From positions 2,485,742 to 2,549,741 of the forward strand of contig NC_014216.1 of assembly GCF_000092205.1 (NCBI RefSeq): a DNA stretch of 64,000 nucleotides, written 5' to 3'. Position 1 is the stretch's first letter. Each line of letters begins with the position of its first letter. The notes under the pieces are model-generated. The model saw nothing but the letters and a program-made list of their open reading frames with translations, was not told the origin of the DNA and did no database searches. Source of the DNA: Desulfurivibrio alkaliphilus AHT 2. Lineage in GTDB: Bacteria > Desulfobacterota > Desulfobulbia > Desulfobulbales > Desulfurivibrionaceae. Below, one piece after another: positions 5,091 through 62,443 of this stretch. Position numbers and translations under genes: made by a program.

Positions 5091-5627
5091 CTACCACCAG
5101 AAAACCGGGTAGCGGCGGGAAGCGGGGATGTTGTTGATCAGCAGGGCCACCAGCAGCATGATCAGCGCGCCGCTGGCGATGGGAAAGAGCAGGTACCAGT
5201 AGCCCAGTTGATGAATCTCCTCGCCGCCGATGACCGCGATTAAAGCGGTGGCGCCGCCGGGCGGATGCAGGGTTTTGGTGAGATGCATCAGGGCGATGGC
5301 GGTGGCCACCGCCAAGGCGGCGGCCAGCCAGAGCTGGGGGGCGAAAAACTGCAGGCAGGCCACTCCCACCAGGGCGGAAACCAGATGCCCCCCCAGCAGG
5401 TTGCGCGGCTGGGCCAGAGGACCGGCCGGGGCGCCGTAGATCAGCACCGCCGAGGCCCCGAAAGAACCGACAATCAGCAGCAGGTCGCTGCCCTCCAGCC
5501 ACCGGTAGTGCAGCAGCGCCACCGCCGCAATACCCAGAAAGGCTCCCAGCCACGACCAGAAAATCTCGCCGGCGCTTACCCGGGGCGGGCTTTTTTCACC
5601 GCCCCGCATTTTGGCCCAGTATGACAT
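5091..5627 (-). CDS. HPP family integral membrane protein
   Basis: This is a 178-residue protein with four to five hydrophobic helices and the name-giving motif LHPPGGATAL near residue 120. Members have been linked to nitrite or other anion transport, but the function is generally unproven. A strong ribosome binding site (AAGGAGGAGC) precedes the ATG. It lies 21 bases downstream of the RND pump gene on the same strand and may be the last gene of that operon, together with the deaminase. Confidence 0.85.
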   Translation of the reverse strand: MSYWAKMRGGEKSPPRVSAGEIFWSWLGAFLGIAAVALLHYRWLEGSDLLLIVGSFGASAVLIYGAPAGPLAQPRNLLGGHLVSALVGVACLQFFAPQLWLAAALAVATAIALMHLTKTLHPPGGATALIAVIGGEEIHQLGYWYLLFPIASGALIMLLVALLINNIPASRRYPVFWW

Positions 5628-37054: not shown

Positions 37055-38779
37055 TCAATCCATTCGGTTGGCGTGTTTGTAAATATAGACCGCATGCTTG
37101 CCTCGGCCAGGCGGCTGAATGGCACTGTTTTCCCGCATCAATTCCTTCATGAGGCGAATCACCTGATAGCGGCTATAATGGGTAATCTGGCGGATTTCTC
37201 TATTGGATAATCCCGCATCCCCGCGCTGGGCCCGGTCCATAAGAATGCTGAGGACTCTGGTTTTGGCCGCATCCCAGTTAATCCGGCGGCTGTGCTCCAA
37301 GGTACCGCTCTCCTGCAGGCGACTGTGCAGCTCGGGGGATAAAGTCCAGTAAGTGCCTTTGCCGCTTCCGCCCCGCTCCAGGTAATGAAGGTGCTCCATA
37401 TCGGCCAGCACGCCGCGCGCCTGCTCTTCCGACCGCTGGCAGATTCTGGCGGCGGTGGCAGTATCCATCTCGAAATGCTTCAGGAGATACTGAAGGATCA
37501 GGAGCCGGTCAACACCTAGCAGGCGGCCGGCCTGGCTTTCCTCGGCAACAAACAGTCGGAAAGAGCCGGAGAGATTGCGGTGCAGAAAGGTCACCGTCAC
37601 CGACTCCCCGATTTCCCGGATGGTTGGCGGCTCTTTTCCTTCGATCAGCAGAGCCTCGAACATCCGGCTTACCCCCAAATTACTTCGATTGACCAGCCGC
37701 AGGCGGGCCAGGGCTTCAACCAGCAGCGGGTTGCGGGCCGCAGGCTGATGATGGAGGATGTTTTCCGGGGTAATACCGGCGATAAAACCGCCATTGTTGC
37801 TGATTTCAAGACGATCCGGGAACTGCTTGACCATGATGGGGCCGGACAGCCGGTAGTCGGCATGGCACAGGGCGTTCAGCAGGGCTTCCCGCAGGGCGAT
37901 CTCGGGGTAAACCCGGTACTCGAAATGAAAAAGACCGTGCTCCAGGGTGGTGATGGGGTTGTCGGCATTGATCAGTTCCTCCAGCCGTTCCAGGGCGATG
38001 GGCAGAGCTGAGCGGCTATCGACCCGGTTGCTGTAGTGGGTGTCTGATTCCATGCGCAACCAGGTCCAGACATAGCCCTGCATCAGGTTTTGCAGGGCCT
38101 CTTCCTTGCCGGCCAACAGCAGGCCGGCCCTGGTCAAAGCCCCATGCTTGAGCAGTTCCAGGGCCGCCAGTAATTCGTGGTCAGACAGACGGAGCAGATC
38201 GTCCGGGGCTCTTTCCTTACGGGCTTGGTTGCGCAGCTTTTCCAGGGCGGACGGGGAAAGCAGATCCCGGGTGGCCCCCGGTACGGTTTCAGCGGTGAAA
38301 TCGGTCTCCCCGGTTTCCACCGCAATCTTGCGGCGCAAGGTTCCGGTAAGCGGTCGGCACTCCTTGCCGATACGCACGGTTCCGCGCCCCGAGGTATCGG
38401 TATAGGGCGGCATGCCGGGGTGAATCTGCATAATCAGCAGGCGACCCGTGCCTTCGGGAACCCGCAGCTCCTCAAACACCGGCATGATTTTGGGGTCGGT
38501 CTGGTCATAGACCGCTTTCTTGAGCCGGTTGACATCAACCTCAAGCGGGACGCCAAGCACGGCCTGGCTGCGGCCTTTGACCGTGTCGGCCACTCCGAAA
38601 ACCACCGTCCCGCCCCCGCCATTGGCCATGCATACGGCCATGCGGATCAGCAATTGCACTGCTTTGTCCATGCTTTTGCCGTCCCACTGCTTGAAGTCCA
38701 GGTCCTGGTCCTCAAGCTCATCGGCAACGCGCTGGTCCAGTTCCGGCAGGAGCTGTTCTATTTGCTGAGGAGTTTTCAT
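37055..38779 (-). CDS. AlbA/Schlafen-domain ATP-binding protein embedded in BREX
   Basis: This is a 574-residue protein. Residues about 20-150 form an AlbA_2/Schlafen-like domain (DLDFKQWDGKSMDKAVQLLIRMAVCMANGGGG split over the start, VVFGVAD). Residues about 290-400 are a GHKL-type ATP-binding domain as in RecG-like AlbA proteins (REALLNALCHADYRL, FPDRLEISNNGGF, NLGVSRM). The C-terminus has winged-helix segments (LSNREIRQITHYSRYQVIRLMKEL). It lies 9 bases after brxC and about 100 bases before pglX on the same strand, inside the operon. It may regulate BREX or act as an extra effector. The family assignment is good; the role is unknown. Confidence 0.83.
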   Translation of the reverse strand: MKTPQQIEQLLPELDQRVADELEDQDLDFKQWDGKSMDKAVQLLIRMAVCMANGGGGTVVFGVADTVKGRSQAVLGVPLEVDVNRLKKAVYDQTDPKIMPVFEELRVPEGTGRLLIMQIHPGMPPYTDTSGRGTVRIGKECRPLTGTLRRKIAVETGETDFTAETVPGATRDLLSPSALEKLRNQARKERAPDDLLRLSDHELLAALELLKHGALTRAGLLLAGKEEALQNLMQGYVWTWLRMESDTHYSNRVDSRSALPIALERLEELINADNPITTLEHGLFHFEYRVYPEIALREALLNALCHADYRLSGPIMVKQFPDRLEISNNGGFIAGITPENILHHQPAARNPLLVEALARLRLVNRSNLGVSRMFEALLIEGKEPPTIREIGESVTVTFLHRNLSGSFRLFVAEESQAGRLLGVDRLLILQYLLKHFEMDTATAARICQRSEEQARGVLADMEHLHYLERGGSGKGTYWTLSPELHSRLQESGTLEHSRRINWDAAKTRVLSILMDRAQRGDAGLSNREIRQITHYSRYQVIRLMKELMRENSAIQPPGRGKHAVYIYKHANRMD

Positions 38780-53160: not shown

Positions 53161-54870
<1,710 letters not shown>

Positions 54871-54999
54871 GAAAACGTCCAGCAGCACCGCATCTTTGGG
54901 CGATCGGCCCGGCTTGCGGAGGGGACAGTTTTGAAAACTGTCCCCGATTACGCGGCGCCGGTTCGCTTGCCCAAATCTGCGGCACTGCTGAATGTTTTT
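54871..54999. repeat. Long inverted repeat, copy 4, with an extra 25-base palindrome in its loop
   Basis: CAGCAGcaCCGCA...TTGGGC (from 54,880) pairs with GCCCAA...TGCGGcaCTGCTG (to 54,990). In place of the short loop of copy 1 it holds a perfect 25-base hairpin at 54,921-54,945 (arms GGGGACAGTTTT and AAAACTGTCCCC, one-base centre). The structure follows groEL and may end its transcript. Confidence 0.82.
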
Positions 55000-55154
55000 C
55001 GTCCGTGCCAGCCTCTTTTTTTAGGCAGCTACGTTTTATTGTTTTTACAACGCCCTTGGCCGGGTTCCTCTTGGCCGAGGGCGTTTTTTTTGCTGCATCC
55101 GGGCGGGAAAACCGTTATCCTGCCCCGATTGCTGTTTGGTGGTTTTTGCTGATG

Positions 55155-55231
55155 GCGCCCGTAGCTCAGCTGGATAGAGCACCGGCCTTCTAAGCCGTAG
55201 GTCGCAGGTTCGAATCCTGCCGGGCGCGCCA
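55155..55231 (+). tRNA. tRNA-Arg (UCU)
   Basis: This 77-base gene includes encoded CCA. The acceptor GCGCCCG pairs with CGGGCGC, and the anticodon loop CTTCTAA has anticodon TCT. The T arm has GTTCGAATC. The first anticodon-stem pair is a C-T mismatch. It is immediately followed by accessory region 2; no duplicated 3' end was found inside the window. Confidence 0.95.
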
Positions 55232-55240
55232 GAAAAAAAT

Positions 55241-55279
55241 AAGGCAAATCAAGTAATTAAGCTTGGTTTGCCTTTCTCT
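55241..55279 (+). terminator. Terminator after tRNA-Arg
   Basis: AAGGCAAATCAAG (55,241-55,253) pairs with CTTGGTTTGCCTT (55,262-55,274), with one wobble, followed by TCTCTTTTT. Confidence 0.7.
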
Positions 55280-55425
55280 TTTTGTACCACAAATTTTCTC
55301 AAAAACAGCCCTTTTTGTGTCCCAAGTGTCCCAAGAGTGTCACCAAATATTTTATCTTTCGGTTTGTGATTTTACGTCACATTTTCCACTGTCCCAAAAT
55401 TGTCCCATCGGTCAAAAAAGATTGC

Positions 55426-55768
55426 GTTACTGCGTAACGACAAAAACCACTACCACCACCACCCGGCGGCACCAGCCGCCGATACCACCCTTCTATTTCC
55501 GGGAAGGCTGAGAACTCCCCCTGGTGCAGAATTTTCACCGGGTTAGTGGGTGGTGAAAATTCTGCACCACCCTGGTGGTGAAAAATTTGCACTGGGGTGG
55601 TGAAAATCCTGCACCAGGGTGGTGAACGACGTTCACCCTGAACCAGTCATTGGAACCAGTCATAAAAACCACCACCCCCTTTCCCCCTCCCCCATGGACG
55701 TATGGTCGAGGTGCAGGCAGTAGGTCCGTAATGGTGATGGGAGGAGGTGGTGTTACTGCGTAACGACA
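55426..55768. repeat. Iteron-like repeat field, candidate replication origin or control region
   Basis: This gene-free stretch holds a 17-bp direct repeat GTTACTGCGTAACGACA (55,426-55,442 and 55,752-55,768). GGTGAAAATTCTGCACC occurs at 55,552-55,568, with near copies at 55,577-55,593 and 55,599-55,615, and an exact inverse at 55,523-55,539. There is also a palindrome GGTGAACGACGTTCACC (55,621-55,637) and tandem GAACCAGTCAT (55,640 and 55,653). It lies next to a gene with a DnaA-like domain. No CDS is seen from 55,280 to 55,800. Confidence 0.65.
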
Positions 55769-55800: not shown

Positions 55801-56217
55801 TTAAGATTTATTAATTTGCTTTGCGAGCTGCTCAATGAAGTCAAATACGCAATTCGCTGTCTTTGTGCGCTCTCTCTGTGTTAGTTCGGATAATAACTCG
55901 TCAACAGACTCGGCTATCGCTAAAGACTCAGGAAGAAAACGGTCTGTTGTGATTTTTGACCTCAGAAACTCCTGATTTAATTCAAAAATTATTTGATCAT
56001 CTTGAAATATTCTTCCTCTTCCAGTTTCCCACCACTCGATATTTATCCCAAGTTTGTTCAATAGCTTCTGCTCAAGTCCACGACTAGGTCGCCTTCTTCC
56101 AGAAAGCAAGGAAGACACATGTGAACGAGAGACACCAATTGCATGAGCTACTACTTCCTGTGTTAAATGTTGAGGGGCTTCGGTCATAACAATCCGAAGT
56201 TTTTCAGAAAAATCCAT
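55801..56217 (-). CDS. XRE-family transcriptional regulator
   Basis: This is a 138-residue regulator with an N-terminal Cro/CI-type helix-turn-helix (LTQEVVAHAIGVSRSHVSSLLSGRRRPSRGLEQKLL split over four helices) and a helical C-terminal region. The gene is AT-richer than its surroundings. GGAAGGATC precedes the ATG. It is divergent from the HTH/replication operon at 56,357, and a palindromic site lies between them, the usual layout for a repressor of an integrated element. Confidence 0.85.
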   Translation of the reverse strand: MDFSEKLRIVMTEAPQHLTQEVVAHAIGVSRSHVSSLLSGRRRPSRGLEQKLLNKLGINIEWWETGRGRIFQDDQIIFELNQEFLRSKITTDRFLPESLAIAESVDELLSELTQRERTKTANCVFDFIEQLAKQINKS

Positions 56218-56356: not shown

Positions 56357-56632
56357 ATGTCCACATCCAAAATCATCTACAGTCAATATCCCGGGCGAAT
56401 CACGCTGACGCCTGACGAGTTAGCTGGCTTATTGGCTGTTAGTGCTCACAGGATACGGCTCGCTGTAGCACGGGGGCGGTGGCCCATCCCCCACCGTAGG
56501 ATAGGCCGGCGGATTATGTTCCCGGTGGCGGCGGTCGTCGAGTATCTCGACCATGGCGGTTCGGCGCCACCCCGGAGAGGTCCGGGCCGCCCCCGAAAAG
56601 CCGATCAGGTCCAGGCCAATCAGGGGAGGTAA
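56357..56632 (+). CDS. Small helix-turn-helix DNA-binding protein
   Basis: This is a 91-residue protein with an excisionase/MerR-type pattern: ITLTPDELAGLLAVSAHRIRLAVARGRWPIPHRRIGRRIMFPVAAVVEYLD, then a proline/arginine-rich, AT-hook-like tail (PPRRGPGRPRKADQ). ATG 56,357 follows AAAGGGTGC. It precedes the replication gene by 3 bases and may control excision or copy number. Confidence 0.82.
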   Translation: MSTSKIIYSQYPGRITLTPDELAGLLAVSAHRIRLAVARGRWPIPHRRIGRRIMFPVAAVVEYLDHGGSAPPRRGPGRPRKADQVQANQGR

Positions 56633-56635
56633 TCC

Positions 56636-57490
56636 ATGTCGATGGAGATGATGGTCAGGGCTCTCCAAGTCCGCGTCGGCAATCCAACCAGAAAATTAAT
56701 CCTATTAAAGTTGGCTGACAACGCCAACGACGCAGGCGAGTGCTGGCCATCCTACCAGCATATCGCGGATCAGTGCGAAGTCAGCAGGAGGTCAGTTATT
56801 CATCATGTTGCTGCACTATGTAGTGCCGGGCTGATAACCAGAAAACACCGCAACCAACCCGATAAAACCCACACCAATGCCAGCAATCTCTACATTCTCC
56901 GTTTGTCCCCGATGTCGGATGCCGACATCGACCCGCCAACATCATTTCCATCCAAGTCGGGTGCCGACAGCACCCCGGCCAGCAAGTCTACAGCAACCGC
57001 AAATGAGCCACCAGATACCGTGTCCCAGGCGGACTCAGAGGAGATTGATGAATATGTACACCTAGCCGAACGCCACGGCGGGCCAGAAAAATGCCGTAAT
57101 CCTCGTGGACTGCGGCGGTATCTGCGCCGGCACGGCCTCACTGATGACCACCGGGCCGAAATGGTAGAATGGCGGGCGGCTGATGAGGCAGCCCGGGGCC
57201 TACAAGAGACCATCGCAGCAGCAGAGGCAGACGATCATCCTGATCACCCACCGGAACCGCCGCAAGAGTGGGTGGCGGCACGTGAGCATTTGCGGTGCCG
57301 GGTGCCGGACGGTGAGTATCATCTTTGGATAGAGCCGCTTCGCGCCAAAACCCATAACGGAGAACTATTAATCCTGGCCGACAATAAGGAGTGGGCCGCC
57401 CGAGTGCGGGATCGATACGGCGACCTCATCAGAGCCTCAATAGAGGCCGCCGGCGGCGGCGAATACAGTATTACGGCAGCACCATTATAG
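56636..57490 (+). CDS. Replication-type protein with HTH and DnaA-N-like domains
   Basis: This is a 284-residue protein. Residues 1-90 form a helix-turn-helix domain as in replication initiators (NPTRKLILLKLADNANDAGECWPSYQHIADQCEVSRRSVIHHV split). A linker follows, and the C-terminal 75 residues resemble DnaA domain I (EWVAAREHLRCRVPDGEYHLWIEPLRAKTHNGELLILADN split, ending in DRYGDLIRASIEAAG). GGGGAGGTAATCC precedes the ATG. With the repeat field at 55,426-55,768 it may form a plasmid-like initiation system for the element. Confidence 0.78.
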   Translation: MSMEMMVRALQVRVGNPTRKLILLKLADNANDAGECWPSYQHIADQCEVSRRSVIHHVAALCSAGLITRKHRNQPDKTHTNASNLYILRLSPMSDADIDPPTSFPSKSGADSTPASKSTATANEPPDTVSQADSEEIDEYVHLAERHGGPEKCRNPRGLRRYLRRHGLTDDHRAEMVEWRAADEAARGLQETIAAAEADDHPDHPPEPPQEWVAAREHLRCRVPDGEYHLWIEPLRAKTHNGELLILADNKEWAARVRDRYGDLIRASIEAAGGGEYSITAAPL

Positions 57491-57583: not shown

Positions 57584-58495
57584 ATGAGAGGCAGCATCAA
57601 ATGGCAGGTGCAAGAAATCAGTAAGAGCGTCAACCACATTGGGACAAGCCGCCACTCTGCAAAGGAGACCGCCAGGTCGGCCGGGGCCAGGACTTCGGCG
57701 CAGGTGGCCGAAAAGACAGGCATCCATTCCTATCGTACCCGGGAAGCGTATTTGAAGGTGTGGCGACAGTGCCTGTCTCACTCCAAAGAGCACCACGGTG
57801 TGAAAGACATCACCAAACTGACCGGCGAGCATGTGCAGTCGTTTCTTTCGTCGAGAATTGCCGACGGCGTTAGCCGCCAGACTTACGGCCAGGCGGCGGC
57901 AGCCTTGGGCAAGCTGGAAAGTGCGTTGAATAGCTATGCGACTTCCAAGGGGCTGGAGCGAAGCTATGACTTCCGCACTGAGATCCGGACACTCCGCCAT
58001 GAGGCCCGCGATTTGAGGACTATGGAGGCCGGCAGGGCTTTCCGCGATCCGGACCGGGTAATGGCGGGGCTGCGTGATCCAGATTACCGCCTGACGGCGG
58101 CGATCCAGCGAGAAACCGGATGTCGGCTCAGCGAGGCCACGCTTATCCGCGCGGAGCAGTTGCGGGGTGGCGGCCAGGTCGAGATCCGGGGCAAGGGCGG
58201 CAAGGAGCGGACGTTGCGGATGTCAGCCGATACCTATCGGCAGCTGGCGGCCAGGATCGCGGAGCAAGGAGAGCACCGCGTCAGCCGTGACGCCTATCGG
58301 GCCGCAGTTAGCAGGGCCGCCGAGGCGGCCGGAGAGCGTGGCAGCAATCATGGTTTCCGCCACCTCTGGGTCCAGGAGCGGTTTCGGGAAAAAATAGGGT
58401 ACGGAATGAGCAGAGAGCAGGCCATGGCAGAGGTTAGCCGGGAAATCGGTCATGAGCGGCCGGATATCACCCTACACTACCTAGGAGGCCGCTAA
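57584..58495 (+). CDS. Tyrosine recombinase/integrase, accessory region 2
   Basis: This is a 303-residue recombinase. A SAM-like N-terminal domain (TREAYLKVWRQCLSHSKEHHGV, ITKLTGEHVQSFL) precedes the catalytic domain with RETGCRLSEATLI (R), IRGKGGKERTL, HGFRHLWVQERF (H-x-x-R variant) and GHERPDITLHYLGGR (H and Y). The gene is collinear with the HTH and replication genes, a layout seen in small mobile elements. It probably mobilises region 2, but its target site is not identifiable here. Confidence 0.88.
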   Translation: MRGSIKWQVQEISKSVNHIGTSRHSAKETARSAGARTSAQVAEKTGIHSYRTREAYLKVWRQCLSHSKEHHGVKDITKLTGEHVQSFLSSRIADGVSRQTYGQAAAALGKLESALNSYATSKGLERSYDFRTEIRTLRHEARDLRTMEAGRAFRDPDRVMAGLRDPDYRLTAAIQRETGCRLSEATLIRAEQLRGGGQVEIRGKGGKERTLRMSADTYRQLAARIAEQGEHRVSRDAYRAAVSRAAEAAGERGSNHGFRHLWVQERFREKIGYGMSREQAMAEVSREIGHERPDITLHYLGGR

Positions 58496-59059: not shown

Positions 59060-59617
59060 ATGGATGTGGCCAAATTGGATACGCTGACGGGAGCTACCGC
59101 CGATGATCGGCGGCGGCTCCTCAAATGGTACGCAGGCATGTCCGACGCGCAGCGCGTCGTCGTTGCGGCGCATCAGACTACGCTGATGCGCCGCCGCCGA
59201 CACTTGCGCGCCGAGGCCGGCCAGGACGTCTTTGCCTATGCTATGTTCGTGGCGGCGCTGTACCAGCTTCGCCACGCAAAAGAATCCCTTGGCCGTCGCC
59301 GGCAGCAGCCGCCTGAGCAGCTGGCGCTGCTGGAGCGGCTGCGGCAGGCCGGCCAGGGATGTCGTCGACCGAAAAAACGTGGACCGGGTGAAAAAGCAGA
59401 GGCGTTTATCCGTGCCCATTATGATTGGCTGCCCTCGGCCATGGAGCGGGAGTCACTGGACAGGGTGCTGGATTTTATCCGGCGGGAGTACCGGCTGCGG
59501 TTTTCTAGATCTACGTTTTATCAGGCGTTCCAGCGGATCCAAAAAAACATGGCTGACTGGGAGGCAGCGTGCGATGACACCAAGGCCGAAAAGGTGCCCG
59601 ACTTCGTCGGTAGCTGA
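59060..59617 (+). CDS. Unknown protein A, accessory region 2
   Basis: This is a 185-residue, strongly basic, helical protein I do not recognise. It has an Arg-rich stretch (TLMRRRRHLRAEAGQDVF), a linker GCRRPKKRGPGEKAEAF and a C-terminal helix-turn-helix-like part (DRVLDFIRREYRLRFSRSTFYQAFQRI). No good Shine-Dalgarno sequence is seen. It overlaps the next gene by 44 bases. A DNA- or RNA-binding role is suggested by its charge. Confidence 0.6.
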   Translation: MDVAKLDTLTGATADDRRRLLKWYAGMSDAQRVVVAAHQTTLMRRRRHLRAEAGQDVFAYAMFVAALYQLRHAKESLGRRRQQPPEQLALLERLRQAGQGCRRPKKRGPGEKAEAFIRAHYDWLPSAMERESLDRVLDFIRREYRLRFSRSTFYQAFQRIQKNMADWEAACDDTKAEKVPDFVGS

Positions 59618-60297: not shown

Positions 60298-60633
60298 TTA
60301 GTGGGAGTGTATCGCCTGATCAAGGGTTTCGGCTACCCACTTGTTGATGCTTTTGCCGGCGGCCGCAGCAGTGGCGGCAATTTCGGCGTGCAAGGACGAA
60401 TCGACTCGAACCACGAAACGGCCGGAAAAGGGTTTTTCCGGTTTTCGGCCGGCCTTCTCGCAGCTCTCAATATAAAAATCCACCGCTTCAACAAAGGCCT
60501 TCTTCAACTCAGCGGCAGTTTCGCCGTGAAAACCAACCGTGTCACGAATGCCAAGAAGGTGTCCAAAAAAAATGTTGTCCTCGGGGTCAAAGTCTATTTT
60601 GGCGGTGTATCCCCTGTGTTTAAGAGTATTCAT
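60298..60633 (-). CDS. hicB: HicB-family antitoxin
   Basis: This is a 111-residue HicB protein. The N-terminal RNase-H-like half has YTAKIDFDPEDNIFFGHLLGIRD and TVGFHGETAAELKKAFVEAVDFY; the C-terminal ribbon-helix-helix has FVVRVDSSLHAEIAATAAAAGKSINKWVAETL. It neutralises HicA and represses the operon. It overlaps hicA by 4 bases (ATGA). Confidence 0.93.
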   Translation of the reverse strand: MNTLKHRGYTAKIDFDPEDNIFFGHLLGIRDTVGFHGETAAELKKAFVEAVDFYIESCEKAGRKPEKPFSGRFVVRVDSSLHAEIAATAAAAGKSINKWVAETLDQAIHSH

Positions 60634-60884
60634 GGCTTGATCCCCGCTCTTGTTAAAAAATCTCTGGCGTCACGAACCTGATAGCGTTTCGCTTCCTTGG
60701 CTGGATGCGGTCTATGGAAGTCTCCTTTTTCGCCTTTGAGGATAAAGGCTACCCGCGAACCATCACCTTCAATAACCTCGGCGCCCAGGGCCTTGAACAA
60801 GGCTTCAATGCGTCTCCACTCAATGCCGGTCGGAGTCGGCTTGGCAAAAATGGAGGCAAGTGTATGGTGATGTCTGCTGTTCAT
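60630..60884 (-). CDS. hicA: HicA-family mRNA interferase toxin
   Basis: This is an 84-residue HicA toxin, of usual length, with SIFAKPTPTGIEWRRIEALFKALGAEV (split), GSRVAFILKG and the catalytic histidine in FHRPHP. Its start codon lies about 10 bases from a near-consensus -10 box, leaving almost no leader, and no Shine-Dalgarno sequence is present. It cleaves mRNA when HicB is depleted. Confidence 0.92.
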   Translation of the reverse strand: MNSRHHHTLASIFAKPTPTGIEWRRIEALFKALGAEVIEGDGSRVAFILKGEKGDFHRPHPAKEAKRYQVRDARDFLTRAGIKP

Positions 60885-61351: not shown

Positions 61352-62443
61352 ATGATGCTAATGACAGAAACACGAAGATCCGAAGCCCCTCAGCCCTGTG
61401 GCGAAGTTGTTGACCTATTTTGTGGTGTAGGTGCGCTGAGTCATGGCTTGCGAAATGCCGGACTTAAAATATTGGCCGGATATGATGTGGATGCTCGTTG
61501 CAAGTACGCATTTGAGACAAATAATTCAGCTAGCTTTTTCTCACGGGACGTAGGAAAGCTCACCGCAGCAGAGCTAAAGAGCCATTTCAGCGGAAATGTG
61601 CCATCAGTACTAGCGGGATGCGCCCCATGCCAACCGTTTTCCACATATAAACAGCGGTATGACGAAGACCCGCAATGGGGCCTTGTGCATAAGTTCGCTG
61701 AACTCGCAGTTCAGGTAGACCCCGACTTCGTAACCATGGAAAATGTTCCTGCGCTTTTGAGATACAAGAAAGGCATAGTCTTTGAGAAATTCTGTAAGAG
61801 CCTTACCAACGCTGGTTACAAAGTCGATTGGGTAATAGCAAGATGTGAAGAGTTTGGCGTGCCTCAAAGGCGTAGGCGATTGGTCGTGATCGCATCAAAA
61901 GAAGGTCAACATTGTCCTTTAAACCCCACTCACGCAGCAGCTGTGACCGTTCGTGATGCAATTTCCAGCCTAAGTAGATTGAATGCTGGCGAGTCTGACC
62001 CAAATGACCCTCTCCATACCGCAGCATCTTTGTCTGAAATCAACTTACGTCGAATACGTGCCTCTGTGCCTGGCGGAACGTGGCGTGACTGGCCGGAAGA
62101 ATTACGTGCGCCATGTCATCAACGCGTAACTGGTAAAACTTACCCAGGAGTGTACGCCAGAATGACGTGGGAAGAGCCCGCGCCCACGATGACAACACAG
62201 TGTTATGGGTATGGGAATGGTAGATTTGGACATCCTGAGCAAGATCGTGCCATTTCGTTACGGGAAGCAGCAATTTTGCAATCATTCCCTGCGGAGTATG
62301 AATTTCTACCACCCAATGAACGACATTCGTTCGCTGAGGTTGGTCGATGGATTGGAAACGCTGTTCCAGTCAAATTAGCCGAGGCTATAGGCCATTCTAT
62401 CACGCAATCCAGAGTAATCGGTGGTGAAGCCCATGACAGATAA
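61352..62443 (+). CDS. DNA (cytosine-5) methyltransferase
   Basis: This is a 363-residue C5 methyltransferase. Motif I is VDLFCGVGALSHGLR, the catalytic motif IV is LAGCAPCQPFSTY, motif VI is MENVPALL, motif VIII is QRRRRLVVIAS and motif X is IGNAVPVKLAEAIG. The length is near the family norm. The codon usage and AT content differ clearly from the core genes, indicating recent transfer. It overlaps the downstream GHKL ATPase by 11 bases. It probably protects host DNA within a restriction-type system. The start could also be an ATG three codons further in. Confidence 0.94.
   Translation: MMLMTETRRSEAPQPCGEVVDLFCGVGALSHGLRNAGLKILAGYDVDARCKYAFETNNSASFFSRDVGKLTAAELKSHFSGNVPSVLAGCAPCQPFSTYKQRYDEDPQWGLVHKFAELAVQVDPDFVTMENVPALLRYKKGIVFEKFCKSLTNAGYKVDWVIARCEEFGVPQRRRRLVVIASKEGQHCPLNPTHAAAVTVRDAISSLSRLNAGESDPNDPLHTAASLSEINLRRIRASVPGGTWRDWPEELRAPCHQRVTGKTYPGVYARMTWEEPAPTMTTQCYGYGNGRFGHPEQDRAISLREAAILQSFPAEYEFLPPNERHSFAEVGRWIGNAVPVKLAEAIGHSITQSRVIGGEAHDR

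Follow-up and report, generated by a model that had tools for sequence, protein, structure and literature searches.

Downstream of a tRNA-Arg gene of Desulfurivibrio alkaliphilus AHT 2, a compact field of short repeats lies near a gene for a replication-type protein, which raises the question of what the field does and on whose behalf. We analysed it within a window of 64,000 nucleotides, meaning the whole stretch of DNA (G000:C1:2485742-2549741), in a genome that consists of a single contig of 3,097,763 bp. We consider it quite likely that the field serves an integrative island of approximately 18.3 kb as its O-type (lambda-style) origin of replication, from which the excised island is copied with the island's own initiator. 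The field shares homology with the O-type origins of phages, the initiator is of the O type with a DnaA_N tail, and the element is bounded by att sites.

The field and its borders contain the following features:

55318 to 55407, plus strand: TGTCCCA direct repeats (repeat listing)
55426 to 55442, plus strand: left bracketing 17-mer GTTACTGCGTAACGACA, exact copy
55519 to 55669, plus strand: putative O-type origin of iterons and GAACCAGTCA tandem (nhmmer, blastn, stops in all plus frames)
55523 to 55539, minus strand: iteron GGTGAAAATTCTGCACC, inverted, exact (mismatch scan)
55552 to 55568, plus strand: iteron GGTGAAAATTCTGCACC, exact (mismatch scan)
55577 to 55593, plus strand: iteron GGTGAAAATTCTGCACC with 3 mismatches (mismatch scan)
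55599 to 55615, plus strand: iteron GGTGAAAATTCTGCACC with 1 mismatch, 16/17 identity with the in-gene iterons of L029-L040
55621 to 55637, plus strand: fifth iteron, palindromic GGTGAACGACGTTCACC, in the same 22-bp register (profile of origins)
55640 to 55668, plus strand: tandem GAACCAGTCA element, 38% G+C, conserved in phage origins
55752 to 55768, plus strand: right bracketing 17-mer GTTACTGCGTAACGACA, exact copy

Five 17-bp sites of the form GGTG-N9-CAC(C/T) span 55,523-55,637 and are followed by the tandem GAACCAGTCA pair at 55,640-55,662. The preliminary description had listed three direct copies and one inverted copy of a 17-bp unit, and all are present (55,552, 55,577 and 55,599 on the plus strand, 55,523 on the minus strand). 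The further palindrome that it reported is in fact the fifth site, its tandem 11-mer corresponds to GAACCAGTCATTG/GAACCAGTCATAA at 55,640-55,665, and the 17-bp repeat said to bracket the field is exact on both sides. At no more than three mismatches GGTGAAAATTCTGCACC has five matches in the whole 64 kb against 0.17 expected, a count that 0 of 100 shuffles reached; one of the five lies outside the field, at 37,579. Because stop codons are present in all three plus frames, the field is non-coding. A pseudogene remnant of an O gene was rejected as the source of the field, given these stops and no O-like reading of the field by eye. The tandem element at 55640 to 55668 is probably the unwinding region.

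The bracketing 17-mers contain a GTTAC-TGC-GTAAC palindrome and flank the origin on both sides; their 14-bp core occurs exactly twice in the 3.1-Mb genome, at the two brackets, and once more with one mismatch. The TGTCCCA repeats, which also occur 3' of tRNA-Arg in L044, L048 and L050, are probably integrase arm sites.

Sequence comparison shows that this is no generic array of iterons but a homologue of the origins that lie inside O-type (lambdoid-style) phage initiator genes. An nhmmer profile of 87 O-type origins, built without any member of the window's family, matched 55,546-55,669 at E=3.9e-21, its top match in the window and 17 co-searched loci. With the 181-bp field as the only query, BLASTN retrieved Vibrio phage 236O40-1 at 8e-12, within a putative replication gene, as well as two Thermus phages (2e-6 and 4e-3); the field had no match in plasmids. 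The initiator search led to a Serratia prophage and viral contigs whose rep gene carries GGTGCAAATCCTGCACC-type repeats at 21-24 bp spacing, one of them identical to the window iteron at 55,599 in 16 of 17 positions. A scan of IMG/VR for the iteron/GAACCAGTCA motif gave at least 80 loci, of which 76 of the 80 listed are inside an O-like ORF and the other four no more than 120 bp from the start of the retrieved stretch. Exact GAACCAGTCA was present in 10 of 18 phage and plasmid stretches. Against 20 codon shuffles for each gene, in-gene repeats stood above every shuffle in 21 of 22 genes from phages, plasmids, prophages or viral contigs, with L070 as the exception; for the 18 phage and plasmid genes taken up after the Serratia prophage and viral contigs, the same test gave 17 of 18. 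Among the matches listed in a literature search for the GAACCAGTCA string, none concerned phage origins by title. Thermus phage Riverbug (L320:586-1758) has GGTGAAC...TTCACC repeats followed by AGAACCACC repeats within a gene for a 390-aa hypothetical protein; this row is a candidate origin of the O-type class in a distant host.

Pairing of an origin with the initiator gene at 56,636, which the preliminary description had suggested from repeat shape, is still the best reading and now has homology evidence behind it. What changes is the kind of origin, which belongs to the O-type phage class and not to the RepA/pi plasmid class. A plasmid-type oriV with DnaA boxes (RepA/pi type) was rejected, the box count being not above chance: 3.7 kb contains eight one-mismatch matches against 4.95 expected, and 23 of 200 shuffles reach eight.

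The initiator gene has three features of its own:

56636 to 57490, plus strand: initiator of 284 residues, O-type winged-helix front and DnaA_N tail (PHROG 8540 9.7e-39; PF13730, PF11638)
56912 to 56970, plus strand: two 17-bp palindromes with GTCGG/CCGAC halves, 42 bp apart, inside the initiator gene
57269 to 57442, plus strand: DnaA domain-I-like module, residues 212-269 (PF11638 2.4e-7; PDB 2e0g profile match 6.8e-10)

It is the PHROG 8540 match that identifies the front as O-type. The origin sits 1 kb upstream of this gene and not within it, and no GGTG-N9-CACC sites occur inside the gene. The palindromes at 56,912-56,970 occupy the usual iteron place of phage O-type genes and could be either a relic or a further set of binding sites. 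An in-gene origin in the window's rep was rejected, as the two palindromes are present without the iteron plus GAACC pattern. Neither a separate helicase gene nor one for a P-like loader was recognised among the island ORFs. In the phage and plasmid records an annotated helicase or P-like protein adjoins the O-like gene in 8 of 18, and none is annotated in 10 of 18.

The recognition helix of the initiator reads SRRSVIHH and the window sites are GTGAA; a helix of this kind goes with GTGAA-type sites, and the two agree. In a hand-picked table of helices and sites (51 of 81 rows, two of the 51 unclassed, site types assigned by eye and the L219 helix placed in register by hand), GTGA sites accompany x-R-R helices in 13 of 16 rows and x-K/E-R helices in 3 of 33 (Fisher p=9e-7, n=49 classified rows). 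The table omits rows without a motif, out-of-register regex matches, the ATGCC/ATAGC class and helices that have an R ahead of their last H (GTGACA class). The p value of 9e-7 is inflated by relatedness, because the association falls to 6/8 versus 2/8 (p=0.13) when distinct helix-class pairs only are counted. The best held-out case is Vibrio phage 236O40-1, retrieved by DNA alone, which combines SRRSVIDH with GTGAA sites. A structure prediction of the initiator made without an alignment had a mean pLDDT of 42 and was set aside.

The DnaA domain reported for this gene is real (DnaA_N, PF11638, 30.8 bits against a cut-off of 24.6), although "DnaA-domain protein" is better refined to an initiator of the O type that ends in a DnaA domain-I tail. 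Built from four C-terminal parts, a profile matched E. coli DnaA domain I (PDB 2e0g) at 6.8e-10. Residues 212-269 align with that domain and the equivalent of Glu21 is kept, but the equivalent of Phe46 is Glu and the module is fused behind an O-type front, with neither an AAA+ nor a DnaA-box-binding domain after it. In E. coli, Glu21 and Phe46 belong to the patch of DnaA domain I that binds DnaB, and F46A is inactive for DnaB binding (PMC6127211). Direct recruitment of the helicase is therefore uncertain, and weakened, since the residue at this position is Glu.

Full-length proteins other than DnaA that combine the linker with DnaA_N occur in at least 5 of 257 genomes of the order (G000, G012, G026, G038 and G213); among the matches listed, one in G005 is split across two frames and G007 has a partial match. 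Different N-terminal parts are found in four of these, and two of the four (L056 and L321) carry TCGGATGTACATCCGA-type repeats in the gene. The C-terminal half of the initiator has no match in phages, plasmids or viral contigs, so in these searches the fusion came up only in cellular genomes. In the literature searched, no title gave an earlier description of an initiator fused to DnaA domain I, which may be in print elsewhere.

The island itself is defined by these features:

55155 to 55231, plus strand: tRNA-Arg (tct), integration site (ARAGORN)
55185 to 55250, plus strand: attL core, matching attR (genome 2559196-2559261, window-equivalent 73455-73520) at 94% across 66 bp
55801 to 56217, minus strand: Xre/CI-type repressor-like gene (HTH_3; PF01381 2.2e-10), 3' end toward the origin
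56357 to 56632, plus strand: HTH_17/excisionase-like protein (PF12728 3.2e-7)
57584 to 58495, plus strand: tyrosine-recombinase-like gene (TIGR02224 7.2e-9, PHROG 1 4.8e-15, both matches far under the NCBIfam cut-off for XerC)
59060 to 59617, plus strand: 185-aa protein without a family match

The order along the window is groEL, tRNA-Arg, TGTCCCA boxes, field, the Xre-type gene on the minus strand and then the forward gene set. The att copies, attL covering the 3' part of the tRNA plus flank, differ at 4 of 66 positions, and a tyrosine integrase gene (PF00589 1.5e-29) lies just inside attR. ARAGORN places the tRNA-Arg where the preliminary description had it, and integration after it is borne out by the att repeats and the integrase. 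The element is not small: it measures approximately 18.3 kb from attL to attR and reaches approximately 9.5 kb past the window end, with attR beyond the window.

Because an ordinary integrase gene is present at attR, the recombinase at 57584 to 58495 may serve another role. A recombinase-like gene behind rep is also seen in L049:12743-13711 and L050:9026-9994, where the box aligned to HGFRH is HALKH/HGLKH, and by eye a gene similar to that for the 185-aa protein seems to follow it in both. The island cargo includes a HicAB pair (60298-60884), a C5 methyltransferase (61352-62443) and ATPases at L041:7463-9139 and L041:15521-17086; one ATPase resembles type II restriction proteins (REase_II 5.5e-42) and another HEC-04 (2.8e-46). 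An IS21-like and another transposase-like gene were seen inside the island by eye, and in a reading of the ORF lists no transfer genes were recognised in it.

At two other tRNA-Arg genes of the same genome, a stretch of approximately 160 bp with the tRNA-Arg 3' part and the sequence that follows it recurs (L043 at about 5130-5290, reverse strand; L044:4594-4763, the latter with TGTCCCA boxes). These stretches are possible attachment sites of sister elements. Between groEL and the tRNA lies a dispersed repeat of approximately 130 bp (about 54868-55002) with many matches in this genome and in G001, G002 and G013.

Relatives of the initiator are few. At E<=1e-12 it was found in 5 of 257 genomes of the order, its own included, and in a sample of the phylum in 1 of 395, namely its own genome. 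In L048, L050, L051 and L054 the related gene is close to a tRNA-Arg gene, and so is the L052 gene, which has another N-terminus; the L055 gene is near tRNA-Pro. Transfer genes are present in L047 (TraG_N 5.4e-75) and L048 (TraG-D_C 3.5e-6). The repeat pattern, whose loss in close relatives would have counted against the preliminary description, is retained in part. In L047, the nearest relative found, three 23-bp repeats in tandem occupy the equivalent upstream position, but their sequence is different and the origin profile reports no match to this array. The L047 initiator has its DnaA_N part broken into two reading frames (L047:3040-3340), by a frameshift or an assembly error. In L048 the GAACCAGTCA motif, a GAACC tandem, is present but located inside rep, and other repeats lie in the rep of L051 and L054 (CCCCCGCA...TGC type) and of L049 and L050 (TGTCACC type). 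In the shuffle test on five family genes, the repeats of the window, L048 and L050 stood above every shuffle and those of L047 and L049 did not. L049:8619-10667 and L050:5315-7423 each hold a long gene that we take to be similar to BrxL of BREX defence.

We hypothesize that the island would leave tRNA-Arg by excision and that the winged helix of the initiator would bind the five GTGAA-type iterons, forming an O-some-like complex that would help to melt the adjoining GAACCAGTCA tandem. The C-terminal DnaA domain-I-like module would recruit the host replicative helicase, either directly or through host DnaA, and so replace a separate P-like loader or phage helicase. The circle would be copied by theta-type replication, with the Xre and HTH_17 proteins presumably exerting control. 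In short, the most likely role of the field and initiator is to copy the excised island as a pair, as oriV and rep do in SGI1.

Other explanations have to account for the same arrangement. The field might imitate the origin of an infecting O-type phage, titrating O or using it to copy the island, with the island's own initiator secondary. The strong similarity of the field to phage origins and the restriction- and defence-like genes in the island fit this, and ectopic origin copies can arrest lambda (PMC4488673); we nevertheless think it quite unlikely, as the island encodes its own initiator with a recognition helix fitting these sites, and the searches made found no phage of this host with matching sites. 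It is also unlikely, on balance, that the field is a relic, part of an integrative element whose replicon once worked but which is now stuck. The two transposase genes seen by eye, the transfer genes of L047 and L048 that were not seen in the window island and the degenerate att pair (4/66 positions) speak for such decay, yet the initiator frame has kept its full length, and the tandem and all five sites are still present, in register.

A region of control or recombination (repressor operators, Xis or integrase arm sites) instead of an origin is the least credible account and very improbable. The field does adjoin attL, and both the TGTCCCA boxes and the palindromes that bracket it may well be sites of this kind. 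However, the iteron-plus-GAACCAGTCA architecture common to phage origins would be left unexplained, and the field is located on the 3' side of the repressor gene and not at the promoter.

Returning to an O-type origin with its own initiator, we tentatively propose, as an idea with somewhat less than an even chance, that integrative islands of this order possess a distinct kind of initiator. Interchangeable DNA-binding fronts (O-type in the window, unrelated ones in L052/L055 and in L056/L321) would be mounted on one conserved linker and DnaA domain I tail. The tail would take the host helicase directly to the origin, and within this proposal fronts and their cognate iterons could therefore be exchanged as a pair while the tail stays constant. 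In the window, and perhaps in L047, the origin would have been freed from coding sequence. The locus as a whole links phage O-type origins to genomic islands in a distant group of bacteria, and its initiator would be a natural one-protein replacement for the arrangement of O plus P (or O plus helicase). Two questions become testable: can a DnaA domain-I module by itself bring the helicase to a foreign origin, and can the iteron specificity of O-type proteins be read from a few recognition-helix residues?

Among known systems, phage-inducible chromosomal islands share with the window island an integrase, an AlpA/HTH-type regulator and their own rep and origin, as PMC6092414 describes them. They differ in having pri-rep and two iteron sets around an AT-rich region, and in an undirected reading of the window island no packaging or interference genes were recognised. 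SGI1 resembles the locus in being an integrated island with int, an iteron-type origin outside the gene and its own rep, which an HTH_17 gene precedes as in the window; however, SGI1 Rep belongs to a different family (PMC7433901 names RepA_C), its oriV contains a DnaA box, the iteron sequence is different and replication requires a helper plasmid. The O-type origin and O protein of lambdoid phages such as lambda and the Stx phages (PMC7466680) have in common with the locus iterons followed by an unwinding region and a winged-helix O-type front, and many O-like phage genes share the GAACCAGTCA tandem. The window has the homologous iteron array, the conserved unwinding-side element and the O-type initiator front; unlike in the lambdoid system, its origin is non-coding and outside the gene, and its initiator ends in a DnaA_N module with no adjoining P-like or helicase gene. 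Because the in-gene position and the partner gene are absent, we file the window origin as a variant of the O-type class.
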